From: a virus
Length of the DNA: 27,167 nucleotides
IMG/VR virus record: IMGVR_UViG_3300025646_000272
Span: 1-27,167 of that record
Direction: 5' to 3' (one strand)
The notes under the pieces are model-generated. The model saw only the letters and a list, made by a program, of their open reading frames with translations. It had not been told where the DNA came from and did no database searches. A program made the translations under genes and the position numbers. How positions within the stretch are numbered: position 1 is the stretch's first letter; every line of letters begins with the position of its first letter. Of the stretch, positions 1 through 18,700 are shown piece after piece.

Positions 1-61
1 CAAATGTCAACCCCCGCGTTATCAAATCCCCACACATGTCTCATAAAATCTCCACACCCCG

Positions 62-69
62 AATAAATA
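62..69 (+). promoter_or_regulatory. T4-late-like promoter motif AATAAATA
   Basis: The octamer AATAAATA matches the NATAAATA late promoter motif described for T4-like cyanophages. It lies 77 bases before the first gene and just upstream of a sigma70-like promoter, so that gene could have both host-type and late transcription. An 8-base match in AT-rich phage DNA can arise by chance. Confidence 0.35.
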
Positions 70-80
70 TCCCCAAGGAC

Positions 81-109
81 TTGACAACAATTCCCAGGCA
101 TCTTACAAT
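81..109 (+). promoter_or_regulatory. Sigma70-type promoter upstream of the 57-residue ORF
   Basis: TTGACA (81-86) and TACAAT (104-109) are separated by exactly 17 bases. This is a full -35 match and a five-of-six -10 match to the bacterial housekeeping consensus. Expected transcription start is near 116, about 23 bases before the ATG at 139. Such promoters in T4-like cyanophages are read by the unmodified host RNA polymerase early in infection, which suggests early expression of this gene. Confidence 0.75.
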
Positions 110-138
110 ACCTACAGTAACACTCACGGAGCACACTT

Positions 139-312
139 ATGTCGGTTGCGTATCAGAAAGCTCAGAAGCAGCGTTATAGGGTCACACTGGAACTTGAGGT
201 CTTTGATGACTTTGACCCGCACCAACTTGACTGGGACAAAGTATTTGAGTTGGAACCAGCTGAGAAGGTAGAAGCATACGTAGAAGACCTAAGTAGACCT
301 GATAGGTGGTAA
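139..312 (+). CDS. Small conserved-looking phage protein, 57 aa
   Basis: This ORF encodes 57 residues starting MSVAYQKAQKQRYRV and ending LSRPDRW. GGAG at 128-131 sits 7 bases before the ATG, and a consensus promoter ends 29 bases upstream, so the start is well supported. The N-terminus is basic (K and R at residues 7-14). The rest is acidic, with the segments LELEVFDDFDPH and VEAYVEDL. There is no signal peptide, membrane segment or cysteine. I recall similar VTLELEVFDDFDPH proteins among cyanophage hypotheticals, but no function is known to me. It is followed by an intrinsic terminator, so it appears to be a single-gene transcription unit. Confidence 0.75.
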   Translation: MSVAYQKAQKQRYRVTLELEVFDDFDPHQLDWDKVFELEPAEKVEAYVEDLSRPDRW

Positions 313-340
313 CTTATAAAACCACATATACACTCCTTGA

Positions 341-364
341 AAGACTCCTAGTGGGGTCTTTTTT
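341..364 (+). terminator. Rho-independent terminator
   Basis: AAGACTCC (341-348) pairs with GGGGTCTT (353-360), with one G-T pair and a 4-base loop TAGT. A run of six T follows (359-364). It lies 29 bases after the stop of the 57-residue gene and immediately before the next promoter, so it separates two transcription units. Confidence 0.85.
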
Positions 365-370
365 AATGCC

Positions 371-399
371 TTGACATACCTTACTGTTTCTGCTACAAT
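371..399 (+). promoter_or_regulatory. Sigma70-type promoter with extended -10
   Basis: TTGACA (371-376) and TACAAT (394-399) have a 17-base spacer, and TG at 391-392 adds an extended -10 (TGCTACAAT). It is one of the strongest consensus promoters in the window. Expected start is near 406. The transcript would cover the 26-codon ORF at 428 and the long untranslated stretch before 847. Confidence 0.8.
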
Positions 400-427
400 T
401 ACCTTTGTGGAGGTTAATCAGGGAGCT

Positions 428-508
428 ATGAGTAAGCTTAAGCCACCAGACACAGTATACACCAGAGTACACCCGAAGGGTATTACGAACGTAGTGAGTA
501 ATGTATAA
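428..508 (+). CDS. Possible 26-residue micro-protein
   Basis: This short ORF begins MSKLKPPDTVYTRVHPKG and ends at TAA 506-508. It lies about 22 bases downstream of the expected start of the strong promoter at 371-399. GGAGG (409-413) is 14 bases before the ATG, longer than ideal. GGGAG (421-425) is only 2 bases away, which is too close. The peptide is basic and proline-containing with no membrane segment. I do not recognise it. The alternative is that the promoter makes an untranslated RNA or the leader of the gene at 847. The call rests on the promoter and position alone. Confidence 0.35.
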   Translation: MSKLKPPDTVYTRVHPKGITNVVSNV

Positions 509-740
509 AGAATTTAGAGACAAAAACCCAGTATAAGTAGACACTAAAAAAACCAGTAATAGGGTGAGTTTTTTATAACTCTCTGGCAACCCTTAAGTCT
601 TCGATTGTCTGCTACTTGTCTCTCCTAAGTGTTAACTACCTTTGTGGGAGTTTGTGATTGACCCTTGATCCATATAGGAGGGTTCAATATAAGAAACTCA
701 CCTGATAGTTATTGACACCATACGGAACAAATAACTGGTT

Positions 741-748
741 TATTTATA
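741..748 (-). promoter_or_regulatory. TATAAATA late-promoter-like motif on the minus strand
   Basis: The + strand reads TATTTATA, so the minus strand carries the exact T4 late consensus TATAAATA. It would direct leftward transcription from about 734 across the 509-740 gene-free stretch and antisense to the 428-508 ORF. I accept no gene on that strand, so it is either chance or the source of an antisense RNA. Confidence 0.25.
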
Positions 749-769
749 AGGAACTTTCGTTGAATTAAA

Positions 770-798
770 GTTACTTAGCTCCAAAGTGGACCTATAGT
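770..798 (+). promoter_or_regulatory. Weak candidate promoter before the four-gene cluster
   Basis: TATAGT (793-798) is a reasonable -10. A GTTACT at 770-775 with a 17-base spacer is only a three-of-six -35. If used, the start would be near 805, giving a leader of about 40 CA-rich bases before the gene at 847. Read-through from the promoter at 371 is an alternative. Confidence 0.3.
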
Positions 799-846
799 AC
801 AGGGACACACAACCACCCCTCACCAACACTCTTCAAACGACACTAA

Positions 847-1050
847 ATGTCTCAAAACGCACTCAACTTCGCTATCGAGCACGCCTTCCAAGCCCTTGCC
901 GCTCAGAGTATGGAACTGTTCGACGCATGGTATGAGTATATGCACAATGTTATCGAAACTCCTGATCTCTTCCACAGTGAAATCATCGAGTCTAAGTGGA
1001 ATGCAACCAACCTGGATTTGATGCTTGCTTGTGCAATGCCTCCTGCCTGA
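847..1050 (+). CDS. Unrecognised small protein, 67 aa
   Basis: The 67-residue product begins MSQNALNFAIEHAFQAL and ends DLMLACAMPPA. It looks largely helical, with an Ala/Leu/Met-rich N-terminal half and acidic residues through the middle (ELFDAWYEYMHNVIETPDL). There is no Shine-Dalgarno sequence; the preceding bases are CA-rich with almost no G, as in the next three genes. Codon use is GC-rich (one sampled line is about 52% GC), unlike the structural genes. An overlapping minus-strand frame at 820-1071 is taken to be a shadow. It is the first of four closely spaced small genes that probably share a transcript. I do not recognise a family. Confidence 0.65.
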   Translation: MSQNALNFAIEHAFQALAAQSMELFDAWYEYMHNVIETPDLFHSEIIESKWNATNLDLMLACAMPPA

Positions 1051-1084
1051 TTTAACCCCGTTCAACAACACTAACTAACCACCA

Positions 1085-1336
1085 ATGACTGTTACTTACC
1101 AACGCAATCTCCTCTCCACTGAGTATAATGGTTGGGAGAATTATGAGACCTGGAATGTTGCTCTGTGGATTAACAATGATGAGGGTTTGTATCACCTCGC
1201 ACAAGAAGTTGGCAACTATGTTGACTTTGTAGAAGTGCTCAATGACTGCGGTTCTGATAGCACTCCTGACGGCGTTAAGTATAACGACCCGAAGGTAAAT
1301 GTGGTCCAACTGAATAGTGAAGTATTCGACCTCTGA
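1085..1336 (+). CDS. Small phage protein with GWENYETWNVALWIN motif, 83 aa
   Basis: The 83-residue product carries the motif GWENYETWNVALWINNDEGL at about residues 17-36, followed by an acidic middle and TPDGVKYNDPKVN near residues 60-72. This aromatic NYETWNVxLWI signature is widespread in small phage proteins; I associate it with the DUF7249 group, from memory only. Function is unknown. The start has no Shine-Dalgarno sequence, and the 26 bases before the ATG contain no G. It lies 34 bases after the previous gene and 36 bases before the next. There is no signal peptide or membrane segment. The family resemblance makes this the best supported of the four small genes. Confidence 0.8.
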   Translation: MTVTYQRNLLSTEYNGWENYETWNVALWINNDEGLYHLAQEVGNYVDFVEVLNDCGSDSTPDGVKYNDPKVNVVQLNSEVFDL

Positions 1337-1372
1337 TTCACACTTAGTACTCACACCGTTACTTACACTCTC

Positions 1373-1537
1373 ATGCGTTACATTCCACAGTCTAAGTATT
1401 CCTTTGACGACATCTGTAAGCAATGCTATGATGCCATCAATCGTCCGCCTAGTGTAACAATCAAACCCATCACAGTTTCATATGATGAGGTCCTACACTT
1501 TATGCGACGTGAGGATGGCGTACTAGTCCAACAGTAA
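1373..1537 (+). CDS. Unrecognised small protein, 54 aa
   Basis: The ORF encodes 54 residues, starting MRYIPQSKYSFDDICKQCYD and ending in VLHFMRREDGVLVQQ. Two cysteines are close together (residues 15 and 18, CKQC), but with no second pair visible a zinc site is unlikely. There is no membrane segment. Like its neighbours it has a G-free pyrimidine/A leader (TTACTTACACTCTC) and no Shine-Dalgarno sequence. Arginine codons are CGT/CGC/CGA rather than the AGA preferred in the structural genes. Two minus-strand frames (1052-1423 and 1426-1626) overlap it and are rejected. The gene is supported by its place in the regularly spaced + strand cluster. Function is unknown. Confidence 0.6.
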   Translation: MRYIPQSKYSFDDICKQCYDAINRPPSVTIKPITVSYDEVLHFMRREDGVLVQQ

Positions 1538-1614
1538 GCATCACATAAGGGAATGAGATGCGCCCTATAAAGACACTCACCAAACACACAGTTTCTTACA
1601 ACAAACAACACAAA

Positions 1615-1755
1615 ATGTCCAAGCAAGTTCTTCTCTCTCTGCTGGCTAAAGGTAACAACGGCAATGAGATTCTTTCGATTCTTGATGCAATCGTTGCTGA
1701 GAATGTTTCGGAGGGTTATGATAACGAACCCACTGCAGATGTGATCGAGTTCTGA
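1615..1755 (+). CDS. Small conserved-looking cyanophage protein, 46 aa
   Basis: From the ATG at 1615 the product is 46 residues: MSKQVLLSLLAKGNNGNEIL, then a helical acidic segment and a C-terminal VIEF. An upstream in-frame ATG at 1558 would add 19 residues (MRPIKTLTKHTVSYNKQHK). I prefer 1615, because the added part is encoded by the same CA-rich, nearly G-free sequence that forms the leaders of the three preceding genes. I recall similar LLxLLAxGNxGNEIL proteins in cyanophages, with no assigned role. It is the last gene of the cluster, ending just before two hairpins. Confidence 0.7.
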   Translation: MSKQVLLSLLAKGNNGNEILSILDAIVAENVSEGYDNEPTADVIEF

Positions 1756-1759
1756 TGTC

Positions 1760-1819
1760 GTAGACAGAGCGTTAGCGATAGTCTACTGTGCGGCACCTGG
1801 TTGACTCTGGGTGCCGCAT
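1760..1819 (+). terminator. Tandem hairpins at the end of the small-gene cluster
   Basis: GTAGAC (1760-1765) pairs with GTCTAC (1781-1786) around a 15-base loop. GCGGCACC (1790-1797) pairs with GGTGCCGC (1810-1817) around a 12-base loop, with flanking T-A and G-T pairs possible. The second stem is strong and GC-rich. It is followed by ATATGTTATT rather than a T-run, so it may act as a weak terminator, an RNA-end protector or an RNA element. Its loop contains the -35 of the next promoter. Confidence 0.5.
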
Positions 1820-1829
1820 ATGTTATTAT
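1801..1829 (+). promoter_or_regulatory. Sigma70-type promoter with extended -10 inside a hairpin region
   Basis: TTGACT (1801-1806) and TATTAT (1824-1829) are spaced by 17 bases. TG at 1821-1822 gives an extended -10 (TGTTATTAT). The expected start is near 1836, about 145 bases before the ATG at 1980. The -35 lies in the loop of the 1790-1817 inverted repeat. Confidence 0.6.
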
Positions 1830-1835
1830 GCGTTA

Positions 1836-1979
1836 GAGTAGTCGTCCGGCAGTTATATGCGGTCGGTTGTTTATAGCGCGGCGCGGCGTTGTCCCGTTAT
1901 AAAAAACCCAAACTACCCTAACCTACACTGTATGTCTTTTTCGAGACATATATCAATCTCATAAAAATTTCCCGGAAGT
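1836..1979 (+). ncRNA. GC-rich structured leader or small non-coding RNA
   Basis: Downstream of the promoter at 1801-1829 there is no ORF until 1980. CCGGC (1846-1850) can pair with GTCGG (1862-1866). TTTATAGCG (1870-1878) can pair with CGTTATAAA (1895-1903), including one G-U pair. TATGTCT (1931-1937) pairs perfectly with AGACATA (1944-1950). The CGCGGCGCGGCG core (1876-1887) is extreme for this AT-rich genome. No tRNA T-loop or cloverleaf is seen. It could be the structured 5' leader of the membrane protein gene or a separate RNA. RNA class is not recognised. Confidence 0.35.
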
Positions 1980-2138
1980 ATGATAACACTTAGAAACCGC
2001 CGCCGAGGACCCTACTGGAATTTTTGGAGAGTCATACTTGCAGGATGGATAATCAGATATCCAAAGAGTATGAGTAGAGTTATACTAATACCTCTTGGAA
2101 TTTTGATATCACTGATATATAATGCATGTAAGAATTAA
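1980..2138 (+). CDS. Small basic membrane protein, 52 aa
   Basis: The 52-residue product begins MITLRNRRRGPYWNFWRVIL. The N-terminus is strongly basic (five R by residue 9, another at 17). It is followed by an aromatic amphipathic segment, and a hydrophobic stretch from about residue 33 to 48 (RVILIPLGILISLIYNA) can span the membrane. By the positive-inside rule the N-terminus would be cytoplasmic. A GGAAG close to the ATG is only a weak ribosome site. It sits between the GC-rich small-gene region and the AT-rich genes. A small phage membrane protein could act at the host inner membrane, but I do not recognise a family and give no role. Confidence 0.65.
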   Translation: MITLRNRRRGPYWNFWRVILAGWIIRYPKSMSRVILIPLGILISLIYNACKN

Positions 2139-2171
2139 GTTTTCTTACAAAAAATTCCGGAATATTTTTTT
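2127..2171 (+). terminator. Inverted repeats followed by a T-run
   Basis: TGTAAGAA (2127-2134) and TTCTTACA (2142-2149) form an 8-bp stem with a 7-base loop that includes the stop codon of the 52-residue gene. A second AT-rich palindrome, ATTCCGGAAT (2154-2163), flanked by an A-run, precedes seven T (2165-2171). Together they resemble a weak intrinsic terminator, just before the ATG at 2174. Confidence 0.4.
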
Positions 2172-2173
2172 AT

Positions 2174-2365
2174 ATGGAAAAGATTTATCACATATATGCA
2201 AAGGATAAGTGCTTATATCATTCTCTCAAAAAGGAAGAGTTTGAGAAGATATGGGATACTTTGAATAATATGGTAGGTTTAATGAAAACAGAATATAGTG
2301 CAGAGGATTTAACATATGAGGAACTTTCATTGAATAAGAAAGTAGTACTAGATTCTTCGCATTGA
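2174..2365 (+). CDS. Small MEK-Y family protein, 63 aa
   Basis: The 63-residue protein begins MEKIYHIYAKDKCLYHSLKK and ends LNKKVVLDSSH. It has alternating acidic and basic residues with no membrane segment. Its first 33 residues align without gaps to those of the 53-residue protein at 3200-3361, with nine identities (M1, E2, K3, Y5, K10, Y15, L18, E21, I26). I recall such MEKIYxxYxKDKCLYHxL proteins from cyanophage genomes, always unassigned. No Shine-Dalgarno sequence is present; a T-run directly precedes the ATG. The overlapping minus-strand frame at 2226-2483 is rejected. Confidence 0.7.
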   Translation: MEKIYHIYAKDKCLYHSLKKEEFEKIWDTLNNMVGLMKTEYSAEDLTYEELSLNKKVVLDSSH

Positions 2366-2379
2366 TTTTAGCGTAAGAA

Positions 2380-2408
2380 TTGACAAGACATATATAGACT
2401 GTTAAAAT
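2380..2408 (+). promoter_or_regulatory. Sigma70-type promoter before the glycosyltransferase gene
   Basis: TTGACA (2380-2385) and TAAAAT (2403-2408) are spaced by exactly 17 bases. The expected start is near 2415, about 18 bases before the ATG at 2433. Genes 2433-3494 run without gaps and probably share this promoter. Confidence 0.65.
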
Positions 2409-2432
2409 TTGAACTGATGGTTTGATTTTCTT

Positions 2433-3200
2433 ATGGCAAAAGGATTTACAGTAAAAGCAATTGCACCAAAACCCAAAGAACAAGAATGGGATTATGATGC
2501 AATTAAAGAACGAATGAGGGGCAAGAGTATTGTTTTCTGTTTACCTGGTAGAGGATGTTCTTTTATTTTTCTAAAGGCATTTGTACAACTTTGTTTTGAT
2601 CTAGTTCAAAATGGAATGAGTATTCAGATTTCACAAGATTACTCATCAATGGTAAACTTTGCACGTTGTAAGTGTCTTGGTGCGAATGTTCTTCGTGGCC
2701 CAAAACAGATTCCATGGGATGGTAAATTAGAATATGATTATCAACTTTGGATTGACTCGGATATTGTCTTTACTTCAGAAAAGTTCTGGCAACTCTGTGA
2801 TCTTGCTCTGAATGAAGAAGGAGAAGATAAGGAAGTTGTTGCTGGTTGGTATGCTACAGAAGATGGTCACACAACCTCAGTAGCACACTGGTTAGAGGAA
2901 GAGGATTTCCGCAAGAACGGTGGAGTGATGAACCACGAAACTGTGGATTCGATCAGTAAGCGTCGTAAGCCATTCACTGTAGACTACACTGGTTTTGGAT
3001 GGGTTCTAATTAAGAAGGGTGTCTTTGAGAATCTTGAATATCCTTGGTTTGCTCCTAAAATGCAAGTCTTTGAGTCTGGTGGAGTTCAGGATATGTGCGG
3101 AGAAGATGTTTCTTTCTGTCTTGATGCAAAAGAAGCTGGTTTTGATATCTGGTGCGATCCTCGTATTAGAGTGGGGCATGAAAAAACTCGCGTAATCTAA
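2433..3200 (+). CDS. GT-A fold glycosyltransferase-like protein
   Basis: The 255-residue protein resembles glycosyltransferases of the GT-A fold. After a short N-terminal extension, IVFCLPGRG (33-41) fits the first beta strand and loop. NFAR (75-78) matches the N.AR motif common in these phage enzymes. LWIDSDIVF (105-113) holds the DxD-type metal and nucleotide-sugar site (D108, D110). GFGWVLIKKGVFE (187-199) is the acceptor-side segment. GEDVSFC (223-229) supplies the likely catalytic acid pair, and VGHEK (247-251) a metal-binding histidine. These enzymes move a sugar from a nucleotide donor; the acceptor (virion protein, host glycan or DNA) cannot be told. The gene has its own promoter and no clear Shine-Dalgarno sequence. 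The stop TAA shares its last A with the next ATG. Confidence 0.8.
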   Translation: MAKGFTVKAIAPKPKEQEWDYDAIKERMRGKSIVFCLPGRGCSFIFLKAFVQLCFDLVQNGMSIQISQDYSSMVNFARCKCLGANVLRGPKQIPWDGKLEYDYQLWIDSDIVFTSEKFWQLCDLALNEEGEDKEVVAGWYATEDGHTTSVAHWLEEEDFRKNGGVMNHETVDSISKRRKPFTVDYTGFGWVLIKKGVFENLEYPWFAPKMQVFESGGVQDMCGEDVSFCLDAKEAGFDIWCDPRIRVGHEKTRVI

Positions 3201-3361
3201 TGGAAAAAACTTACAATCTTTTCTATAAAGGGCGTAAAATTTATCAAAATCTTACTATGGAAGACTGTAGTGAGATTTTTCAAAACTTCTCAGAGCGTTT
3301 TTACTCGGGAGAAGATGTTGATCCTAATGAACTAGAAATGGAGGAAAATTTAAATGGTTAA
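3200..3361 (+). CDS. Small MEK-Y family protein, 53 aa, coupled to glycosyltransferase
   Basis: The ATG uses the last A of the upstream stop (TAATG), a usual sign of translational coupling. The 53-residue product starts MEKTYNLFYKGRKIYQNLTM and ends in an acidic tail (SGEDVDPNELEMEENLNG). Its N-terminal 33 residues align with the 63-residue protein at 2174-2365, so two related small proteins flank the glycosyltransferase. It has one cysteine and no membrane segment. The final codons overlap the start of the next gene by 8 bases, and its coding sequence contains that gene's ribosome-binding site. Role unknown. Confidence 0.7.
   Translation: MEKTYNLFYKGRKIYQNLTMEDCSEIFQNFSERFYSGEDVDPNELEMEENLNG
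3340..3344 (+). promoter_or_regulatory. Shine-Dalgarno sequence GGAGG
   Basis: GGAGG lies 9 bases before the ATG at 3354, inside the end of the previous gene. It fixes the start of the 46-residue basic protein and is one of the few full Shine-Dalgarno sequences in the window. Confidence 0.7.
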
Positions 3362-3494
3362 AGGTGGATCGAATAAAACAGTATTTGAAGCGGGGGCACC
3401 AAAGAAGACTCGTCAGGGACGGTCTCCTCGTACTCTGCTCAGTGCAACCTCTCGCAATGGACGTAAGAAAAAGTATCGTGGACAAGGTAAATAG
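3354..3494 (+). CDS. Small basic conserved-looking cyanophage protein, 46 aa
   Basis: The 46-residue product begins MVKGGSNKTVFEAGAPKKTR and ends GRKKKYRGQGK. Roughly a third of residues are K or R, with many G and S and no hydrophobic core, so it is probably disordered and may bind nucleic acid or an acidic partner. I recall very similar KGGSNKTxF...APKKTRxG...KKYRGQGK proteins in T4-like cyanophage genomes, with no role assigned. It overlaps the previous gene by 8 bases and has a GGAGG 9 bases upstream. GC is higher than in the flanking genes. Confidence 0.8.
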   Translation: MVKGGSNKTVFEAGAPKKTRQGRSPRTLLSATSRNGRKKKYRGQGK

Positions 3495-3516
3495 TTAAAA
3501 GTTCATTAACTTGTCT

Positions 3517-4176
3517 ATGTACCACTTAGAGTGTTTGGATGAGTGGAATTCAATTCATTCAAATGATTTATGGGTTTATAGTAAGTTGTTTTTAAATAAT
3601 CGTCTGGGGCATCTCTGTGGACCTACAGGGGTGCCTGTTCCATATCCAGGGTATTATATCGTCCGACCAAGCATTAATTTACTTGGTATGGGACGATTTT
3701 CTCGTATAGAATGGATTGATAAAGAGACTGATCACTTTCATCCATCTGAATTTTGGTGTGAGATTTTTAAGGGGGAACACATTAGTGTTGATTTTAGAAA
3801 TAAGAAAGCAGAACTTGTAATCCTTGGAGAAAGATATGATAACAATAATCTTTATAAGTGGAAAAGTTGGACAAAAATTGAAAGAAATATTGAGTTTCCT
3901 GAAGTATTAAATAACTTAAATGGAAATTATGAATGGATTAACTGTGAATTTATTAATAATCACCTAATTGAAGTTCATTTCAGAAGAAATCCAGACTTTA
4001 GATATGGGAATACTGTTGCAATTCCTGTCTGGAAAGATCAAGAATTGGAAAATAAAAATAATCTTACCTTTATAGAAGATCCAGATTACCTTAGAAAAGG
4101 ATTTTACATTGACTCACGGGATAGCAACCCCGTAAAAAGTTCTGATTTAACAGATCAGGAGCTAAAAAATGACTAA
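3517..4176 (+). CDS. Conserved-looking cyanophage protein of unknown function, 219 aa
   Basis: From the ATG at 3517 the product is 219 residues, MYHLECLDEWNSIHSNDLW onward. A TTG two codons upstream (3511) is possible but has no better ribosome site. The sequence is rich in W, Y, F and N. Recognisable blocks are GPTGVPVPYPGYYIVRPSIN (about 37-56), MGRFSRIEWIDKE, FHPSEFWCEIFKGEHISVDF, WINCEFINNHLIEVHFRRNP and FRYGNTVAIPVW. There is no signal peptide or membrane segment, so it is probably a soluble globular protein. I recall proteins with these blocks from several cyanomyoviruses, labelled hypothetical. It overlaps the next gene by 8 bases, pointing to co-expression. Confidence 0.8.
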   Translation: MYHLECLDEWNSIHSNDLWVYSKLFLNNRLGHLCGPTGVPVPYPGYYIVRPSINLLGMGRFSRIEWIDKETDHFHPSEFWCEIFKGEHISVDFRNKKAELVILGERYDNNNLYKWKSWTKIERNIEFPEVLNNLNGNYEWINCEFINNHLIEVHFRRNPDFRYGNTVAIPVWKDQELENKNNLTFIEDPDYLRKGFYIDSRDSNPVKSSDLTDQELKND

Positions 4177-4426
4177 AAAAGTCGATAAAGACCAAAATTT
4201 CATGAAAAATGAGTGGGGAACTCGATATTTGTCCTCCGAATATGGTTGGGAAAGTCAAATCGAGAGCAAAAAAATGCTTCGTGAGATTGCAAATGACGAT
4301 TTGACTCCCAAAAAACATGATTTCTTCCATCAAAATGAAATTCATGAAAAAATTCGCAATGATGATGACTATGATGATTGGGAATATGGTACTGAACCAC
4401 TATATGAATTGAAAAAACGCGAATAA
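4169..4426 (+). CDS. Acidic small protein, 85 aa
   Basis: The ATG lies inside the end of the previous gene (8-base overlap). AGGAG at 4157-4161 gives a good ribosome site 7 bases upstream. The 85-residue product starts MTKKVDKDQNFMKNEWG, contains YLSSEYGWESQIESKK, and has the acidic run NDDDYDDWEYGTEPLYE near the C-terminus. It is highly charged, without cysteine or membrane segment. Its stop codon lies inside the ATAAATA motif before gp25. I recall cyanophage proteins with WGxRYLSSEYGWE, function unknown. The minus-strand frames at 4091-4345 and 4200-4400 are shadows. Confidence 0.75.
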   Translation: MTKKVDKDQNFMKNEWGTRYLSSEYGWESQIESKKMLREIANDDLTPKKHDFFHQNEIHEKIRNDDDYDDWEYGTEPLYELKKRE

Positions 4427-4429
4427 ATA
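4422..4429 (+). promoter_or_regulatory. T4-late-like promoter before the baseplate operon
   Basis: AATAAATA fits the cyanophage late motif NATAAATA. Transcription would start near 4436, about 14 bases before the gp25 ATG. Its place directly before a structural operon supports a real late promoter. Confidence 0.6.
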
Positions 4430-4450
4430 ATACAGTTTTTATACACTTTA

Positions 4451-4852
4451 ATGCCTTTAGAGCGAGTTAGCAGGGGTTTTAAGGACATAAGTATGTCTTT
4501 TCAGGTTAATCCATTAAATTACGACCTAATTGCACTTAATAATGAAAGTGCAATTGCTCGCTCCATTCGCAATTTGGTACTTACATATCCCGGTGAAAGA
4601 TTTTTTGATGAAAATTTGGGTTCTAGAGTGAGTCAATCTCTTTTTGAAAATATTGATGATATAACAGCATCAATAATTAAAGATGAAATTGAAAATACTA
4701 TTCGTAATTATGAACCAAGAGTAAATCTTATTGATGTGAAAGTCTCTCCTGATTATGGAAACAACGAATTTAATGTAACGGTGGAATATTCAATAGTGGG
4801 AATTGATGTTCTTCCTCAGCAGTTATCATTTGCACTTCAGCCAACACGATAA
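4451..4852 (+). CDS. 25: Baseplate wedge subunit gp25-like
   Basis: The 133-residue protein matches T4 gp25 in length (132) and layout. IARSIRNLVLTYPGERFFD (36-53) and LGSRVSQSLFEN (56-67) correspond to the conserved gp25 core, and NYEPRV (86-91) is the hallmark EPR motif of the gp25/LysM-like baseplate family. In T4, gp25 forms the inner baseplate with gp6 and gp53 and contacts the sheath initiation site. There is no Shine-Dalgarno sequence; a late-promoter motif lies 22 bases upstream. An internal Met at residue 15 is an alternative start, but the first 14 residues agree with my memory of cyanophage homologues (MPLERVS.). The stop directly abuts the gp6 ATG. Confidence 0.92.
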   Translation: MPLERVSRGFKDISMSFQVNPLNYDLIALNNESAIARSIRNLVLTYPGERFFDENLGSRVSQSLFENIDDITASIIKDEIENTIRNYEPRVNLIDVKVSPDYGNNEFNVTVEYSIVGIDVLPQQLSFALQPTR

Positions 4853-6760
4853 ATGGCACTAGTTAATTTTACAAACTTAGACTTCGATCAAATAAAAAGT
4901 TCGCTTCGTGAGTACCTAAGAGCGAACTCAAATTTTACTGACTATGATTTTGATGGTTCTAACCTTTCATCTTTGATTGATGTTTTAGCATACAATACTT
5001 ATATTTCCTCATATAATGCTAATATGATTAGCAATGAGGTTTTTATTGATAGCGCCACATTGAGAGAAAATGTTGTTTCTCTTGCAAGAAATATAGGATA
5101 TGTTCCATATTCTCGCGCAGCTGCCAGAGCAAATATATCCTTTTTTGTAGATACGAACGGTTTTTCCACAAATCCAATTACGTTAACTCTCAAAAGTGGA
5201 ATAGTATGTACCACAAATACAACTTTTGGTAATCAGAGCTTTACTTTTATTATTCCACAAGATATAACAGTTCCTGTTATAAATGGAATTGCTTTATTTG
5301 ATAACATAGACATATATGAAGGTTTTTTTGCAACTAGCAATTTTACAGTAGACGCAAATAATAAAAATCAAAAATTTATCTTAAACAATGCAAATATTGA
5401 TATAGACTCAATTAGCGTTTCTGTTAGAAATACACAATCGAGTACAATAAGAAATGTATATAAATTATCAAAAAATTTATTTGAAATTAATTCGGAATCT
5501 AGAGTCTTCTTCATACAAGAAATAGAGGATCAAAGATATGAATTGATTTTTGGTGATGGTGTTTTTGGTAAGAAATTAGAAAATTTAAATTATATCGAAG
5601 TCAATTATAATATCACAAATGGTGAAAATGGAAATGGAGTTTCTTCTTTTAATTTTAGTGGTCGAATAGTAGATAATTTAAACAGAGTTGTAACCTCTGG
5701 AATATCCTTAATTACTACAAATTCTCCATCACAAAATGGAAGAGAAATTGAATCGGTAGAATCTATTAAAAAATATGCTCCTAGAAAATATTCTTCACAA
5801 AATCGTGCGGTGACTGCAACTGATTATGAAACAATTGTACCAACAATCTATCCAGAAGCTGAATCAGTATCTGTTTTTGGGGGAGAGAATTTAAATCCAC
5901 CAAGATATGGAAAAGTTTTTATATGTATAAAACCAATTAATGGACCTTTTGTTTCAAACCAAGTTAAAGATAATATTGAGAGAGATTTGAGGCGGTATTC
6001 TGTTGCGGGAATAGTGCCCGAGATTATAGATCTAAAATATCTTTATCTGGAAACTGATACTACTGCATATTATAATTCCAATACAACATTAGATCCAAAT
6101 TATCTTAAGCAAAAAATAATTAGCAATATTGATAGTTATTCAAATTCAAAAGAGCTTAATCGATATGGAGCAAGATTTAAGTACAGTAAGTATTTAAAAA
6201 TTATTGATGACTCAGATATTGCAATTATGTCGAATATTACCAAAATTGCAATGAGACGTGATCTGAGACTTGTTTTAAATGCTTTTGGTGATTATGAGAT
6301 TTGTTTTGGAAATCAATTTCACATAAAAAATCAAAATGGATATAATATTAAATCATCTGGATTTAATATTTCGGGAATAAATGATACCTTATATATTGGA
6401 GATATCCCAAATTCGGATAATATTACTGGAAGTATCTTTTTCTTTAAGTTACAATCTTCCCAACCAGTAATTGTAAAAAGAAATGTTGGAAAAATTGATT
6501 ATTTAAAGGGAGAAATAATACTATACCCAGTAAACATAAATTCCACACAAAAAACTTCATTTGATCAACCTATAATAGAAATTTCTGCTATTCCAAAGTC
6601 AAATGACGTAATTGGATTGCAGGATTTATATTTGCAACTAGATATTAATAGTGTTACATTAAACATGCTTTCTGACGAAATTTCTTCAGGTTCAGATATA
6701 TCTGGATCCTCTTATAAATTTACATCAAGTTACACCAACGGAGACCTCGTAAGATTATAA
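4853..6760 (+). CDS. 6: Baseplate wedge subunit gp6-like
   Basis: The 635-residue protein is close to T4 gp6 (660). The N-terminal region MALVNFTNLDFDQIKSSLRE, with LIDVLAYNTYISSYNANMIS (41-60) and ATLRENVVSLARNIGYVPYS (68-87), is typical of the gp6/baseplate J group. LIFGDGVFGKK (about 230-241) and the following VNYNITNGENGNG are the baseplate J-like core signature. RAVTATDYETIVPTIYPEA (about 317-335) is another conserved block. In T4, gp6 dimers make the inner iris that joins neighbouring wedges. It begins immediately after gp25, and the next gene starts 4 bases after its stop, so translation is probably coupled. The C-terminal third is the least familiar part. Confidence 0.92.
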   Translation: MALVNFTNLDFDQIKSSLREYLRANSNFTDYDFDGSNLSSLIDVLAYNTYISSYNANMISNEVFIDSATLRENVVSLARNIGYVPYSRAAARANISFFVDTNGFSTNPITLTLKSGIVCTTNTTFGNQSFTFIIPQDITVPVINGIALFDNIDIYEGFFATSNFTVDANNKNQKFILNNANIDIDSISVSVRNTQSSTIRNVYKLSKNLFEINSESRVFFIQEIEDQRYELIFGDGVFGKKLENLNYIEVNYNITNGENGNGVSSFNFSGRIVDNLNRVVTSGISLITTNSPSQNGREIESVESIKKYAPRKYSSQNRAVTATDYETIVPTIYPEAESVSVFGGENLNPPRYGKVFICIKPINGPFVSNQVKDNIERDLRRYSVAGIVPEIIDLKYLYLETDTTAYYNSNTTLDPNYLKQKIISNIDSYSNSKELNRYGARFKYSKYLKIIDDSDIAIMSNITKIAMRRDLRLVLNAFGDYEICFGNQFHIKNQNGYNIKSSGFNISGINDTLYIGDIPNSDNITGSIFFFKLQSSQPVIVKRNVGKIDYLKGEIILYPVNINSTQKTSFDQPIIEISAIPKSNDVIGLQDLYLQLDINSVTLNMLSDEISSGSDISGSSYKFTSSYTNGDLVRL

Positions 6761-6764
6761 TAAA

Positions 6765-9700
6765 ATGAAAGAAACCAGAATTAAAATCAGTTCAATCATC
6801 GACAATCAACTTCCACAATTTGTTAGAGAAGAATTTCCATTAGTATCGGAATTTTTATCTCAGTATTATATTTCTTTAGAAAATCAAGGTGGAACTAATG
6901 ATTTACTTCAAAATATTGAGCAGTACGTTAAAGTTGACAATTTAGCAAACTTAATTGAATCTACAAATTTAAGTTCTGATGTTACTTTTTTTGATTCTAC
7001 AATTAATGTATCTTCGACAGCAGGTTTTCCAGATTCTTATGGGTTACTATTAATTGATTCTGAAATTGTCACATACACTTCAAAGACTCCAACAACTTTT
7101 GATGGGTGTGTAAGAGGATTTAGTGGAATTAGTTCTTATGAAAGTAATGGCGATTTGGTTTTTTCAGAAACTTCAGTGGAAGAACACATTTCACCAACAA
7201 CCGTAACAAATTTAAGTGTTCTTTTTCTAAAAGAGTTTTTTGCAAAAGTAAAGAAGCAAATCACTCCTGGATTTGAAGGTAGAGAGTTATATTCAGATTT
7301 AAATGAAAGATTATTTACAAAGCAAGCTGTAGATTTTTATTCTTCAAAGGGAACAGATAACTCTTTTAAAATTTTATTTGGAGCATTATATGGAGAAAAT
7401 GTTGATATAATTAGACCAAGAGATTATCTGATAATACCATCAAGTGCCCAGTATAGAATTACTTCCGATCTAGTCGTAGAAAATATTGAAGGTAACCCAG
7501 AAGAGTTTATTAATGGTACGCTTTATCAGTATCAAAATTCGGATGAAATTTTAAAAATATCTCAGGGGACTGTTACTAAGGTCGAAAATATTATAAGAGG
7601 ATCAAAAACTTATTACGTAATAAGTTTAGATTCTGATTATGATAAAGATATTGAGCCAAAGGGATCGATATATGGAAAATTTAAAATACACCCACAAACA
7701 AAAATTACAACAGAAATTATTGCCAATTCGACAACAATTGAAGTTGATTCTACTGTAGGATTTCCAGTATCTGATGGTTTATTGAGTATAGATCTTCCCA
7801 ATGGATCTTCTTTAACTGTCCAGTATACTTCAAAGACATTGAATCAATTTTTGGGATGTACCGGTGTAGAACAAAACATACCAATATCAACAAAGGTAAA
7901 ATATGATTATTTTTCATATGGATATTCAAATTTAACTGGTGAAAAGATAAAGGTTAGAATTCTTGGTGTTTTATCTGACTTAGAAATACCAGAAAATACT
8001 ACATTATACTCAAATAACGATATTATTAAAATAAAGACCTTAGGAAAAGAATCTAAAGAACATAGAGACAATAATTGGTTTTTTAATATTCCGGTAAAAT
8101 ATGATGCAAGTTCCATAAGACTTTTGGATAGTTCAGACAAATCATATATTATCAATGTAGAAGAAGACCATATTTTTAGAGTGGGTAATTTAGTATCTTT
8201 AACCTCTTCATCTGGTTTGGAACAGATTGGAAATGTTATTTCAGTTGAAGATAAAAAATCTTTTAGTGTTCAATTTGGAGCAGAAAATTCTTTATTGGAC
8301 ATTTTACAGAAATATACAGTAAGAAAAATCGTAAATAAAGCGGAATTTGAAAATTACTCAATATCCAATCAATATACTTCTAATGTACAAAATGTTTATT
8401 TGGATAATGAGGAGTCATTATATGTTGCATCTCCTTCAATTCCATCATATTTGAATACACCTTTGGATATAAATGATCGTTCAGTCCAATTTAGTGGAAC
8501 TTTTACTGGAAATACTTTAAAAATAGGAAATCATGGATTTTATACTGGAGATTCTGTAGTATATAAACCCACAACTGAAAATTCTTTAGGTATTTCTTCG
8601 GGAATTTATTTTATAAAAAAAGTTAGCGATACAGAAGTAAAATTAGCTAAAAGTAGAAGTAATATTTTTTCTGAAAACTTTGTATCTGTAAATGGAACTG
8701 TTAATAATGCTAAATTTGAACTTAAAAATTTTGTATTTAATGATTTAAGTACACAAAAATTAGAATCTCAGAAATTAATCAGAAAAATAAAAAGACCAGA
8801 AGTTGATGGAAATTTATATCAAACTAAAGCAGGATTGATTGGAATTTTTGTTAATGGTGTCGAGATTCTTAACTACAAATCTAGAGATAATATTTATTAT
8901 GGTTCAATTGAAAGAATCGTAGCAACCTCTGGAGGATCTGGATATGATGTAATAAATCCACCAATTTTATCTATTTCAGACAAAAATGGTTCTGGAGCTA
9001 ATGGATATTGCTCAGTTATTGGTGGGCTTGAAAGAATTGATATTTTAGATCCGGGATTTGATTACCTTGAGGAACCAAAAATTGAAATTATTGGTGGAAA
9101 TGGGTCTGGAGCATCCGCAAAAGTAAATCTTGTGAGTTTTGACCATCAAGTTACCTTTAATTCAATTAGTTCTGCGGGATTAGTAAAATTAAATCCATTA
9201 AATCAAGTTGGATTTTCAAGTTATCATAAGTTTAGAGATGCGGAAGAAGTTGTTTATATAACAGACTCCCAAACTTCTGTTGGTGGGTTGTCCACAAATT
9301 CTACTTATTTTGTTTCTGTTAAAAATGAATTTAATGTAACTCTTCATAAGTCATTTGAAGATGCAGTTAGCGGCATTAATACTATTCAATTAACTTCATA
9401 TGGCGAAGGAAATCATTCTTTCAAATCAAAAAATAAAAAAAGAAAAATTGGTTCAATTCAAATTGAGTCTAATGGACAAAATTATCAAAATAAACTAGTC
9501 ATTGGTAGTGTGAGTGGAATAAATACTGCTTCCAATATTATCTCGATAAAAGACCATGGATATAATAATGGAGAAGTTATTGTATATAATGCAACAGAAG
9601 AACCTATAGGTGGATTATCATCTTCTACTTCATATTATGTAACTAAAATTGATAATGACCAATTTAAATTATCTCAACTTGGAATAGGAACTCTGGGAAT

Positions 9701-12700
9701 TCCTACATCTTTTTATTTTGATAATAAAAAATATGTAGATTTAACTTCCAAAGGTGTGGGAGATCATAAATTTAACTACCCAGAAATTAAAGTAAGTGTA
9801 ACAGGAAGAGTGGGAGTTTCTACACTATCTGGAAATAATTTTAATGCAATAATTCAACCAATTTTTAGAGGAGAAATTCAATCAGTATTTGTAGATAATG
9901 GTGGTTCAAACTATGGTTCAAATGAAATTATTAATTATAATGCACAACCACAATTTGATTTAAATTCTGGATCTGGAGCACAGTTAACTCCGATTATTTT
10001 AAATGGTCAAATTGTGGATGTTTTAATTCAAAGTCAAGGAAGTGGATATAATTCTCCACCAAATCTTATAATCAATGGTGATGGAAAAGGAGCACTACTA
10101 TCACCAGTATTATCTAATGGTACTTTGGTAGAAGTTATTATAATTTATGGTGGATCTGGGTACTTTCAAGCAAGCACATCTATTGTAGTAAATTCATCAG
10201 GTTCTGGAGCAAAATTAGAAGCGGGAATAAAATCTTGGAATATTAACCTAGTAGAAAGATTGATTAAGTCTCAACAAATAACAAAAGATGATGGAATTAT
10301 ATCCAATGGTATAAAGGATACTTATGGACTTCAATATACCCATGCATATGCGCCAAGAAATTTAAGATTTTCTACACAGGCAACTAAGTTTGAGGATGGG
10401 GAAATAAAATATATTCCGGATTTAATTATTTTAGATGGGAAAGAACTATCCCCCAATGAACTGGGCGGATCAAATGCTCACTCTCCTATTATTGGTTGGG
10501 CTTATGATGGAAATCCGATTTATGGGCCTAATGGATTTTCTTCAAAAACTGGAGGGTCTATTAGAACTCTAAAGTCTGGATATTCTCTAAGAAGTGATTT
10601 GGATGTTCTAGTTTCTTCAAGACAAAGACCCAATTATCCAAATGGATTTTTTGTTGAGGATTATATTTATCTTGAAGATGGGGATTTAGATGAGTCTAAT
10701 GGAAGATTTTGTATTACACCAGAATACCCAAATGGCGTGTATGCATATTTTGCAACTAATGAGAGTGAAAATGTGGAAGAATCCGGACCATTTCGGAATT
10801 ATAGGGCACCAAAATTCCCATATTTAATAGGAAATACGTATAAATCAAAACCAATCGAATTTAATTTCAAAGTAGATTCCAATCAAGATGATATTGATAT
10901 CAATAAAACCAATTGGAAGAGAAATACTACTCCATATGATATTTTTTCATATGAGTATTTGTTAAGTCCGAATCAAATAAAACAGCAAAACTCTAAAATA
11001 AAGAGTGTTTCAACTGGATCTATTGAATCTGTAAAAGTTGAGAATGGTGGAGAAAATTATAAAATAGGAGATGAAATTGTTTTTACTAGTCCAAATGGAT
11101 TTGGAGCAAAGGCCAAAGTTTCATCATTAAAAGGAAAGGAAATTTTCGATGTTGAAGTTTCTACGTCAACACTAAACAATTTTACATTTTATCCATATAA
11201 TAATAAATTTATTGGATTTTCAACTGTTCCTCACAATTATCTTGATAATGATTTGGTAACATTTGTAGGAATATTTGACTATAAAAAATCAGGAAATATA
11301 ACGGTACAAAATAACAAATTAGTTTTATATGTTGGTGTTGGATCTGCCCAACATACTGGAATTGTTACATATTTCAACGTATCTGGTAATTTACAATATC
11401 CAATAATTAGAGAGAATGATATATATCAAATTGGAGATGAGCAAGTTAAAATTTTAAATATTGATCGCCAGGCATCAAGAATTAGAGTTATTCGCAATCA
11501 AAATGGAACTATTGGATTAACTTCTTATTCAGCGGGATTTGCTCTTACTGAAAGGTCTAATAAGTTGCAATTTAATTTTGGCATTTCAACGTCATATAAC
11601 TTTGATATTGATAGAGAGATTTATTTTGATCCCAAAGAATCTATTGGTTTGGGAACAGTTTCTGGGGTTGGAATTGTCAGTACACTTTATTTTTCAAATA
11701 TAGGCGTTGGAATTACTCAATTAACAATTCCAACTCAATCAATTTACATTAAAAACCACAATTTAATCACTGGAGATTCTTTAACATACTCCGCAAATGG
11801 AGGGACTCAGGTTTCGGTTTCTACTGACGGAAAATCTAGTTTTTCGCTCTCTGAAAATTCAATAGTTTATGTCGCAAAAATTTCCAATGATCTTATTGGA
11901 ATATCAACTGTTAGAGTTGGATTGGGATCGAATGGAACTTTTGTTTCTGTAGGTTCAACGATAGAAAGTCAAATTTTATATTTTACTTCGGTTGGTACTG
12001 GGAACACTCATAGTTTTGTAACAAATTTAGAAAATAATCTTCGTGGGGATATAACGAAAAGCGTAGTAACAGTCACAACTACAGAATCTCATGGACTATC
12101 TTTGCAGGATAACATTAGTATTGGTGTAAAATCGGGAGTTTCTACTACTTTTGTAGTGAAATATAATGATTTTAATAGAAGATTGATAATAAACCCAAGA
12201 AATTTTGCTAGTGTAGATACTTCAAATGGAACTATTATAATTAATAACCATGGATATAAAACTGGGCAAAAGGTAGTATACAATGCAGCAACCCCTTCAG
12301 TTGGATTATCCAACAATCAGATTTATTATGTTGTAGTTGTAGACCCTAACAAAATTAGACTTTCTACCAGTTATTATCAGGCAATAAAGTCAACCCCAGA
12401 AACTATCATTATTGGGTCATCTCAACCAGGTATTTTATCGCAAATTAATCCTTTATTAAACTTTGTAAGAAATCAATCTATATTATTCGATCTTTCGGAT
12501 TCTTCATTATCTTTTTCAAACAACGGCATAGTATACTCAGCATTTGACCTAAGATTTTATAGTGATTCGGAGTTTATTAACGAATTTGATTCTACAAAAT
12601 CATCAAAGATATTTGAAATAGTAAGGGAGGGAAAGGTTGGAATAGATTCCACAGCAAATATTAAAGTAAACTTAAACGATAATTTTCCAAATGAACTGTA

Positions 12701-15700
12701 TTATAAATTAGTTCCTATCAATTTACAGATAAACTCAAATATTAAAAAAGATATCATAATTGATGATGAAGTACCCGGATTTAATAAAATTTCTTTAGTT
12801 AAAAGTGAATATAGTGGCAATTATTCTATTGTTGGAATTTCATCAACTACTTTCGCATTTAACATTTTAGATATATCTGAAAGAATATCTCCCGCCCAAG
12901 ATTTTGAGTATTATGTTCAAAAATCATCAACATCAAATGGATCCATTAATGAAATTACTGTTCTGAATGGAGGCAGAAATTATACTTCATTACCATTAGT
13001 TGCAGCAAAATCAGATCAAGGGTCAAACTCAATATTAAAGGCACAAACAAATGACATTGGGAAAATTAATTCAGTAGAAATAATTGATATTGGTTTTGAT
13101 TACTCCATAGACCATAGCGTTAGGCCCACTGCAAATTTTCCAAGCATTTTGTTTTTAGAACCACTATCTTCTTTAGATTATATTGGCATAACTTCTGTAG
13201 GGAAAAACTATACTTCCGCACCATCTCTGGTGGTAATAGATGGAATAACAAATAATGTAATTAATGATATAGAATTATCATATAATCTTGGGGATTCACG
13301 AGTTGCAATAAACAAAAATAGTAGTTATATTAACAGTGTTACTCCAAAAATTATTCCAATTAATAACTCAAATGGAATTAAAATTAATAACATCACCTTT
13401 GATGATCTGACTAAAGATGTTACAGTAACATTGGGGGCAAGCTTTAGTGATCCTCAAGATTATCCATTTGAAGTAGGAAGTAAAGTATTAATTGAAGGAG
13501 TTAGTGTAGGAATTGCTTCAACTGCAAAGGGATACAACTCTTCAAATTATAACTATAACTTATTCACTCTCACCGATATTGATCCAAACATTGGTGGTGC
13601 AATTGGAGTTGTTACTTTTAATTTATCTTCTTATTTGCTTGATGGGGAGAGTCCGGGGTCTTTTGATAGTAGATTTTCTGCTGGTAGAATAATACCAGAA
13701 TCGTATTTTCCTTCATTTAATCCAGTTTTAAAGAAGAATAATTTTTATAAGGGAGAAAATGTAAATTCAATTTCTTCAAATGGACTTGTTTTGGATTGGA
13801 ATAAAGAAAATCAATATTTAAAAGTATCCAATATTAATGACTTTTCTACAAATGAACTTATAATAGGGGAAACTTCTGGGTCTGTTGGTATTATAAAGGA
13901 AATTTTTAGTTTAGAAGGTAACTATGAGGTGAATGCATACTCAGAAGTGAGAAAAGGATGGAATACCGAAACTGGATTTTTAAACAATGATTTTCAAAGA
14001 GTCCATGATAGTGACTATTATCAATATTTTTCATATGCTCTTAAGTCAAAGCAAGACTTTAATAATTGGAATAATCCAGTAAGTGCTCTAAATCACACTG
14101 CAGGATTTAAAAAGTTTGGAAATTTAATTTTAGAATCTGTAGCAGGAAATGCTGGAATTTCTACGAATCAGAATAATGGAGATTTTTCTGGAACTACAGA
14201 TCTATCAAGATTTGTAGATTTAAATTGCGTTTTTGATTTTGATCTTGCTAGTGAAAATGGAATTATTTTAGATGGAAAGCTTATTTCAAATGAGATTATA
14301 TTCAATTCTAGAATTATCCAGGATTACATAGAATCTGTTGGTAATCGTGTCTTGATGCTTGATGATATTTCACAAGAATTTAATAGCAACCCGAGACCAA
14401 CAAAATTCAGTACTGTGGAATCTTTTGTTCTAAATGAACATAGAACAAAAAAATATTTTATTGTAGTACAAGATAAAATATTTGATACAGAAAAGCAATT
14501 AAGTTTGGTAGTTCTTCTGCAAGATGGTAATAATGGTTATTTGAATCAGTACGGATTAAGCACCAAAAATGATTTGGGATCTTTTGATTTTAATATCACC
14601 GGAAATTTAGGAAACTTGTTGTTCTATCCACAAAAAACGCAGTTTAATGATTACAATATACAGACACTCTCTTTTTCTCTAAACGATATTATAAGTGGGG
14701 TTGGAACTATAAATCTAGGAGATTGTGTTAGTATTGATACAAGTACTACAACAATTCCACAAGGAACATCGGTTTCAACTCCAATTGTTGGTATTGCTTC
14801 TACTTATAGATCATCAAAAATTCTAGTTCAAATTGGAGCAACTGATGCATCATACTACGAAACTGATGAAATTATTCTTATCAATGATGGAAATGATGCA
14901 TATCTTTTAGATTATGGGCAAATAACAACGAATATTATATCATCACAATCATACTCTGGTATAGGAACATATAATGCATACTTGGATGGTTCTGAAGTCA
15001 AAATAGATATAACTCCAAATGCCCCAACATCAGTTGATTATGTAATCAATACCTTTAACATTTCTATAGGAAATACCTCTACATCTGGAATAGGAACTCA
15101 AATTGTAAGTGGAAGTTCTTTATCTTCTTCCTCAGTGGGAATTGCATCAAGCAGTTCTCCAACGGAAAATATTTTAGCAGTATATTCTAATACTTTATAT
15201 AATGGCTCATATTTTATTGCGAGTATTGAGGACAAAACTAATTCAGAATATCAAGTTTCTGAATTTTTAGTACTAACAAATTCCAATGAAAATGAATGCT
15301 ATATGGTAGAATTTGGAACTCTTAATACACAAAATAATTTGGGTATAGTTACTGCCGGAGTTTCTGGTAATAATACTGAAATTTATTTTACACCAAATCA
15401 AGATATAGAAGTTGATGTTAAATTATTCTCAATTAACATCGGACTAAATCCACAATCCGATAGAATTTCTTTAGAAAATGGATATATTGAATATGATCAA
15501 AATGACTACCTCGGAACTGATAACGACATTAGGAAGGAATTTATCCTAAGTCATAAAAATAACCCAGTATTTGAAAGATATTTTGATGGAAGTGACTCCA
15601 AATATGTAAATTTGGAGAATAATACAATTACAATTCCAAATAATTTTTACGTAACTGGTGAGGAAGTAGTTTATTCATATCCGGGAGTAGGAACAACGCA

Positions 15701-18700
15701 AGCAATAGGTATTGCATCAACATCAATTGCAGGAATAGGAATAACAGATAAACTTCCACAATCACTATACATTATAAAATTAAATAATTTAAACGTAAGA
15801 GTTGCAGCTTCTGCTTCTGAGGCTCTTAGTCCGATTCCCAAATTCTTAGATTTAACTGGTGTTGGTATTGGTAGTTCTCACTTGTTTACTTCAAAAAATC
15901 AAAATAAAAAGGTTATTATTGGAATTGATAATTTAATTCAATCTCCTATATCACTAAGCGAAATTTCTACAACATTATCGCAAGATATTTCTATATTTGA
16001 CTCCATAATTTATATATCAAGCATAGATTTTATATATGGTGGGGATTTGATAAAGATTGATGATGAGATTATGAGAGTCAATTCTGTTGGGGTTGCAAGT
16101 ACAAATTCCATCAGGGTATCTAGAAAATGGTTGGGAACTGGGTTATCTACTCATACATCCTCCAGTCAGGTCACTAAAATATTTGGAAATTACAATATTA
16201 TCGGCAATAAAATTTATTTTTCTGAAGCTCCATATGGGAAAGTTCCTTTTACAAACCCATCAACAAGACCTGACGAGCAAGATTATATTGGAATTACTAC
16301 AGGATCAACATTTAGTGGAAGGGTATTTTTAAGATCGGGAATAACTGGATCTGATGAAGATCCATATTCAAAAAATTATATTTTTGATAATATTTCAAAT
16401 AATTTTGATGGATTGGATAAAACTTTTGAATTAAAGTCTGGTGGAAATAGTGTAACGGGAATATCTTCTGATAACGCAATTGTTCTTATTAATGATATTT
16501 TCCAAGGACCTGTAGCACCTTTAGTTGAGGGTGATTATTCTTTATCCGAAGAAGTTGGAGTTACGTCAATAACATTTGTAGGATCTGCTTCATCTTCAAC
16601 ATACGATGTTAACACCGCAAGTATTCCTAGAGGGGGTGTTATTATTTCTGTTGCATCTACTCCAGGATTTGGATATCAACCATTGGTGGCGGCTGGAGGA
16701 ACTGCTATTGTTTCTAGTGCAGGAACTATCCAATCAATCAGTATAGGAAACAGTGGATCTGGATATAGATCTGGTATTCAAGAAATAGTGCATGTTGGTG
16801 TCGCAACTTCAAGTCTAGGCGTTCCTAATATAGAATTTATTGGGACTGCATCCGTAAGTAATGGAAATGTCGTAAGTGTAGCAATAACAAATCCGGGAAT
16901 TGGTTATACATCAACAAATCCACCAATAGTAATATTTGATTCACCATTATCATATTCCAATATTCCACTAGTTTATAGTCAAGAATCTTCCGCAGGTAAC
17001 GGAATTGGTGCGGTTGTGGATATTGTTGTTGGTCAGGGATCTAGTATAATTTCATTTGAAATGAAAAATTTTGGATATGGGTATAAGAGAGGAGAAATAT
17101 TGACTGTCTCTGTTGGTGGAACTACTGGAATTGCTACAGACACTTCACTTTATTTTTCTGAATTTCAAATTTCAATAGATGATACTTTTGATGATAAGTT
17201 TGCATCTTGGACTGTTGGTTCTCTCCAAGTTATCGATCCCATAGATTCTCTATTTGACGGAGAGAGAAAAGTATTCCCAATTCTTATACAGGGAAACCAA
17301 ACTACAATTAGATCAAGACCTGGTTCAAATATCGATGTCCAGTCAACATTACTGATTTTTATCAATGATGTTTTGCAAATTCCTGGACAATCTTACACAT
17401 TTAAAGGTGGGAGTACGATAACATTTGTAGAGGCTCCAAAGGAAGGAGATACTTCTAAGGTGTTGTTCTACAAAGGAACAGAAAATGTTGATACTTCAAA
17501 TTCTGATATTTTAGAAAATGTTAAAATTGGAGATAAAGTTACATTAACTGATAATAATATTAAATTTACTGAAAATAGTAGGTTGATTGTGGAAATAATT
17601 TCTTCTGATAGCGCAGGAACTGATAGTTATTCTGGTCCGGGAAATACTGATGATGAAACACTACTGAGACCGGTGGTATGGTGTAGACAAACTGAAGATC
17701 TCTTTATAAATGGACAAGTAGTTGGAAAAGATAGAATCATCTACGAATCTTATATTCAACCAAGCACAAACATAATAAAAAATATTGATATTAATTCAGA
17801 AGAAATATTCGTTGAAAGTGTTAAGACATTCTTCGACAGTGAAAAAGAATATATTCATGATGGACTTAATGAACTTCCACAAAATAAAATTATAATTGTT
17901 TCTCAGGATTCGGTGGTATCCGCTTCAGCAACGGCGATTGTTTCCGCCTCAGGAACAATATCTTCAGTTATTATCACTAGTGGTGGTGTTGGATATTCTA
18001 CCACACCAACAATTTCAATATCGGGACCAGTTGGATTTGGAACAACAACAGCACAAAATACTGCAAGTGCAATAGCAATTATTTCTGGTGGGGAGGTAAC
18101 TGGAATTTCAGTAACATTTGGTGGATCTGGTTACTTGCAATCACAACCACCTATAGTTTTAATAGAATCTCCGAAGATAACTTACGAGTCTATTGATTCA
18201 GTAACATATGAAGGAGATTTTGGAATTATTACTGGAGTTCAAACAACTTCTGTTGGTGTTGCATCAACGGGGATTATATTTGATTTCTTTATTCCAAAAG
18301 ATTCTGTATTGAGAGATCCTAGTATTGTAAAAGTTGGGATTGCTACTACGGGTATAAGTGGAATTCAAACTGGATACTACTTTACTATTAATAATTCTAA
18401 TATTGGATATGGGATTACATCGCTAGATTCTTTCAATAATATTGTTGGAGTTGGCACATCATTTATCAATAATGTTTATCAAGTTGCTGCAGTTTCAATT
18501 GCACAAACTGCTGTTCCTGGAATTGGAATTACTAATGTTGCTAAAGTGACCGTAAGTGTTGCCGATTATGATGGATTGAGTGGTTTTGGGTTTAGTGCTT
18601 TTTATGGAGAATATAGTTGGGGAAGAATAGAAACACCATTTAGATTAAATCCACAAGAGTTTAATACATATGCAAATATTGGGGGAATCGCCACTTCACC

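Follow-up and report, generated by a model that had tools for sequence, protein, structure and literature searches.

The window analysed here is a 27-kb virus record (27,167 nucleotides), and the records similar to it are Synechococcus and Prochlorococcus myoviruses. Because of this similarity and because genes for gp25 and gp6 lie downstream, the window is from a T4-like cyanophage. Its positions 1756-1979 separate the final member of a series of small ORFs from a 52-aa ORF. The former (46 aa, MSKQVLL..., 1615-1755, plus strand) closes the upstream small-gene cluster and has tblastn relatives in 10 cyanophage records. The latter (RRGPYWNFW..., 1980-2138, plus strand), the first gene behind the element described below, is encoded in 68 IMG/VR loci; no Pfam or PHROG family was found for either ORF. 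The gp25 baseplate wedge gene (4493-4852, plus strand; PF04965, phrog_261) serves as the downstream landmark, and the gp6 baseplate gene, assigned by Pfam and PHROG searches, starts at 4853. Farther on, one ORF of 3995 codons fills 6765-18752 in the structural region, and a second long ORF of at least 2281 codons (20323-27165) runs off the window end. The first-pass annotation had called the intergenic stretch GC-rich. This holds locally for a variable block at 1846-1895, not assigned to a strand, which reaches 62% G+C and contains at 1877-1888 the CGCGGCGCGGCG core that had also been reported. It does not hold beyond that block, as the whole stretch has 46.4% G+C; the upstream small-gene cluster has 42.7% and the downstream region 32.4%. 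Both GC skew and G+C shift sharply near 2 kb (1-2000 compared with 2000-27167), gene direction being equal on both sides.

Six perfect inverted repeats (arms of at least 6, spacers of up to 40) are present in 1756-1979. The mean of shuffled sequences was 1.27 and none of 300 shuffles reached six, which confirms the five or more repeats noticed earlier. A terminator-like hairpin of 14 pairs on the plus strand (1787-1820) joins the arms 1787-1800 and 1807-1820, with a predicted energy of −24.8 kcal/mol and a z of −5.5. Its entire six-base loop is the −35 box TTGACT (1801-1806, plus strand). That the −35 lies in a hairpin loop had been recognized before, with a stem of 8 bp in place of the actual 14 pairs. 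The −10 box TATTAT (1824-1829, plus strand) follows after a spacer of 17 and is preceded by TG, and the two boxes together show 10 of 12 consensus matches. TTGACT-17-TATTAT thus has the −35/−10 arrangement of a sigma-70 promoter with a spacing of 16-18, and such a site occurs in the same place in 75 loci. As in intrinsic terminators, a GC-rich stem-loop is located shortly past a stop codon, and it covaries among relatives. A small extra hairpin, GTAGAC/GTCTAC (1760-1786, plus strand; z −2.4), is found in only some relatives. That the full stretch folds strongly (z −3.5) is due mainly to the 1787-1820 hairpin. Terminator-like sites in 1-4500 numbered 2, with 2.4 expected.

Conservation of the hairpin was followed in loci encoding the 52-aa protein (68), in loci carrying the core motif described below, among the matches listed, and in six named phages. 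An anchor with enough flank was available in 184 loci, and removal of 42 that were more than 85% identical left 142. Promoter-like sites were defined as TTGAC[AT]-16..18-TAnnnT, 60-190 bases before the core, sites outside that range being dropped, and a −35 was counted as lying in a stem loop when the stem score was at least 10. Among the matches listed, 75 promoter-like sites lie at the element, and 51 of them have the −35 in or at a stem loop; of 220 such sites in other parts of these loci, 6 do. The counts come from loci kin to one another and do not represent independent events. Random positions have such a stem in 3-4.6% of cases; at the element it is absent from 24 of the 75 promoter sites. 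The stem sequences themselves diverge widely between loci. When each left arm was paired with the right arm of another locus, the stem formed at 10.9 of the 75 sites on average and never at more than 20, in contrast to 51 with their own arms. Thinning to 70% identity left 22 of 42 with their own arms and 4.4 (maximum 10) with swapped arms. An alignment of 51 rows gave a covariation score of 0.455 compared with 0.242 after shuffling (reached in 0 of 500) and at most 0.226 after sliding; its rows were chosen for having the stem, so that the score alone is not independent proof. Changes on both sides affected 12 of 14 pairs, a number not raised over the 11.6 of shuffles, and they filled 128 cells compared with 62. 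The tests free of stem choice are the comparison of the element with positions elsewhere and the swapping of arms. For the −35-loop hairpin, these data bear out the compensatory changes in relatives that had been put forward as a check.

A strong hairpin (score of at least 12) occurs in the element interval of 102 out of 133 loci, compared with 21 of 133 after shuffling and 30 of 105 in an upstream control interval. Some loci have a strong hairpin there without a −35 inside, and the promoter part is absent or altered in many. Judged by these comparisons, the hairpin between the two gene blocks is the constant and the overlap with a promoter varies. In seven loci (L016, L018, L028, L058, L078, L084 and L119), the hairpin loop holds a TTATAC-like box, possibly a −10, not a −35. 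In P-SSM4 (L261, 1850-1950) and five further loci (L178, L137, L115, L097 and L127), a sigma-70-like promoter has a hairpin and T run at its start site, and a transcript from there would be about 30 bases long. The layout with the −35 in a hairpin was also seen at another locus in Bellamy (184227) and S-SM2 (167150; record coordinates), as AGAGGAACCCT(TGAC)AGGGTTCCTTT together with a TATAAT box.

Instead of ending transcription, such a hairpin might extrude as a DNA cruciform or mark the 3′ end of an mRNA. An effect of cruciform formation on promoter use had been raised by the first-pass annotation. Driven by negative supercoiling, the extruded arms would hide or expose the −35 and thereby gate the promoter. 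Such a role would fit the exact placement of the −35 in or at the stem loop and the z of −2.7 obtained when the full stretch was folded as DNA. It would also fit the weak T run behind the −35-type hairpins, which has a mean of 4.7 T in 9 and at least 5 T in 30 of 51 cases, long T runs being confined to other loci in the same interval (e.g. P-SSM4). G-U pairs, however, are common in the kept stems, which suits RNA over DNA as they would be mismatches in cruciform arms, and ordinary terminator hairpins with T runs occupy the same interval of related loci. We consider the cruciform highly improbable.

The first-pass annotation had further proposed a structured RNA of unknown class for the transcribed part. 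The sequence 1832-1922 can indeed fold into a branched structure in the window. In contrast, the predicted transcript 1836-1930 folded no better than shuffled sequences (z −0.20), the longer segment 1836-1979 reaching −1.80, and RNAalifold returned 0 consensus pairs across 33 relatives. Rfam contained no matching family for the region, the sole match of this search being a weak one to a microRNA model outside it, and no consistent reading frame runs through the transcribed part. When the conserved block was compared for pairing with the sequence ahead of it, own against swapped, only scattered 5-6-mers in modest excess emerged. A riboswitch or small RNA of a new class is thus extremely improbable, and the proposal finds support neither in covariance nor in known families; conservation is linear instead. 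A short leader ORF behind the core was also considered and rejected, as the start-codon frames differ by spacer type and many stop early.

This linear conservation is confined to blocks at defined distances. An A-tract box, TTATAAAAAA (1897-1906, plus strand), has four A residues, none of which is present in fewer than 136 of the 142 loci. Six variable bases separate the A-tract from the core motif ACTACCCTAACCTACA (1912-1927, plus strand). A spacer block of 22 bases follows (1928-1949, plus strand; CTGTATGTCTTTTTCGA type in the window), for which about five alternative types exist across loci (GAGGTGACA.., AAGTGTTAC.., AAGGTTCCC.., ACGAACC.. and CTGTATGTC..), with CG and then ATAT behind them. 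The types are discrete, as though exchanged as modules. ATAT (1950-1953, plus strand) is kept at a near-fixed distance, its start being offset from the anchor by +34 in 84 loci, +32 in 37 and +30 in 4 among the matches listed. Across the 142 loci, again among the matches listed, G+C peaks at −40 to −20 from the anchor. The 142-locus logo mixes loci found by protein, by DNA similarity and by the core itself, and the invariance of the core in it is partly by construction because some loci were chosen by the core. Among the 68 loci selected by protein alone, 65 have CCYTAACCYACA upstream; of the three exceptions, L004 offers just 69 bases of upstream sequence, and the motif is degenerate in L007 and L069. 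In the compared loci, the linear motif is the most conserved part of the region, and it had gone unmentioned in the earlier annotation. Its kept blocks, variable bases and fixed spacing are the kind of trace expected of a bound protein.

The A-tract box TATAAAAA could be read as a late promoter of the T4 type, the core then being the plain start of a late transcript. The six bases between A-tract and the invariant A of the core resemble the spacing of T4 late promoters, and late genes do lie downstream. The box itself, however, has A for T at the seventh base when compared with TATAAATA of T4 or NATAAATA, the cyanophage late promoter given in the available part of PMC2984593, and this A is present in 141 of 142 loci among the matches listed. 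Nor does a transcript start explain 16 kept bases. Such a late promoter is quite improbable.

The core is a single-copy motif in the records that match it. DNA similarity led to six of eleven records, the protein to three and the motif itself to two, and each of them contained a single match with at most one mismatch (11/11). Among eight further records, Syn9, P-SSM4, S-SRM01 and DSL-LC02 had one match each with up to two mismatches. S-PM2, S-RSM4, S-CREM1 and T4 had no core match at this threshold, and a looser pattern gave nothing convincing in them; in S-PM2, S-RSM4 and S-CREM1 recognizable degenerate forms were seen post hoc at the expected place. In all 13 named cyanomyoviruses (three degenerate), gp25 follows the element on the same strand at a distance of 1.8-6.6 kb. 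The genes right behind it vary among phages and the motif stays; the element is therefore not a property of one gene. A host origin of the motif was considered as well; the genome collection yielded three contigs with the element, L270, L271 and L272, all metagenome-assembled and filed under Chlamydiae, Woesearchaeota and Euryarchaeota MAGs, which are probably misbinned phage contigs.

A single copy at constant place and strand amid changing neighbours would also be expected of the main replication origin. Transcription from the hairpin promoter would then enter the GC-rich and AT-rich block, and its RNA would prime DNA synthesis as at the R-loop origins of T4, with an initiator bound to the core. 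This reading accounts for single copy and independence of neighbours equally well as the control function that we favour. Eight of the 11 single-match records were not picked by the motif, although six came via DNA similarity to this stretch, and the promoter is directed into an AT-rich block. In T4, uvsY adjoins gene 25 and oriF. This neighbourhood is not retained in the cyanophages, where gp25 is near the element but UvsY is 46-70 kb away (6/6), and an assignment by T4 synteny was rejected on this ground. An assignment by GC skew was likewise abandoned: a change of sign inside the window was a promising hint, yet the detrended extremes lie elsewhere in 5 of 5 genomes, with the maximum 3.4-18 kb upstream and the minimum 48-76 kb away. 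Moreover, many loci lack the promoter part or have a different one. One theta origin has been predicted for Syn9, its position not being given in the part of the source available (PMC2984593). Altogether we regard the main origin as an unlikely function of the element.

We tentatively favour, at a little short of an even chance, that the element is a compact hub of transcription control, situated where the small-gene cluster gives way to the late structural genes. A GC hairpin stands shortly past the upstream stop codon and the single-copy linear motif about 90 bases further. Transcripts from upstream would fold the hairpin and then stop or pause, which would insulate the next unit and keep elongating polymerase off the promoter. 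With the −35 in the loop, terminator and promoter would share bases. The weak T run, a number of terminator-like sites in 1-4500 no higher than expected and the 24 of 75 promoter sites lacking the stem count against this reading. A phage protein may read the linear motif as double-stranded DNA. The near-fixed spacing of core and ATAT would fit a second, phage-specific promoter in which ATAT is the −10 and the core a box at about −49 to −34; its start would be about 18 bases ahead of the next ORF. The element would thus combine a terminator-like insulator and a host-type promoter with a protein-read DNA element at the boundary of early and late genes. A bolder version holds that the core and its fixed flanks are a unique cis element of T4-like cyanophages that serves as replication origin or as master switch of the late region, recognized by a phage protein and fed or gated by the promoter hairpin. 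This is possible, and we lean against it.

Hairpin, sigma-70 promoter and protein site are, as far as they can be classified here, known kinds of parts. In the accessible literature on origins, ncRNAs, late promoters and terminators, which covered few subscription journals, no published description of the hairpin-promoter-motif combination or of the single-copy motif was found. As printed text, CCCTAACCTAC appeared in no cyanophage paper by title or start of the abstract, the parts of these papers covered. Viruses of the T4-like cyanophage group occur widely in the ocean. They are without motA and asi, according to a review (PMC2984593), and their replication origin is only predicted. The passage from early to late expression is a question in these phages because motA and asi are lacking. 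A motif that outlasts its neighbour genes offers one short, testable address for this passage and for the origin, and it can be used as a marker of the locus in metagenomic contigs.

Several known systems share single features with the element. Like oriF and ori-uvsY of T4, it has an AT-rich stretch behind a promoter and precedes gene 25 at no great distance. It differs from these R-loop origins by the distant UvsY (46-70 kb), by the missing support from skew and by a kept sequence motif; to our knowledge, no kept motif of such kind is known from T4 origins. With the late promoters of T4 (TATAAATA) and cyanophages (NATAAATA) it shares an A/T box upstream of late genes, whereas here the box reads TATAAAAA and is followed by a 16-base invariant motif in single copy. 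A non-coding transcript in a cyanomyovirus has been proposed before with the CfrI antisense RNA of cyanophage S-PM2, as far as described in the available part of PMC2984593. In contrast to CfrI, which is antisense to psbA, the present locus lies elsewhere and has no conserved RNA structure. The intrinsic-terminator insulator of Tn916, in the portion of its description at hand (PMC11658703), similarly places a GC hairpin between gene blocks right after a stop codon; the present element differs in its weak T run and in a loop that itself forms the −35 of the following promoter. Finally, TTGAC-17-TAnnnT is a good consensus match to the host sigma-70 early promoters of cyanomyoviruses, as outlined in the accessible parts of PMC2984593 and PMC3037559. 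Unlike at most other such sites in these genomes, the −35 is here embedded in the loop of a covarying hairpin.
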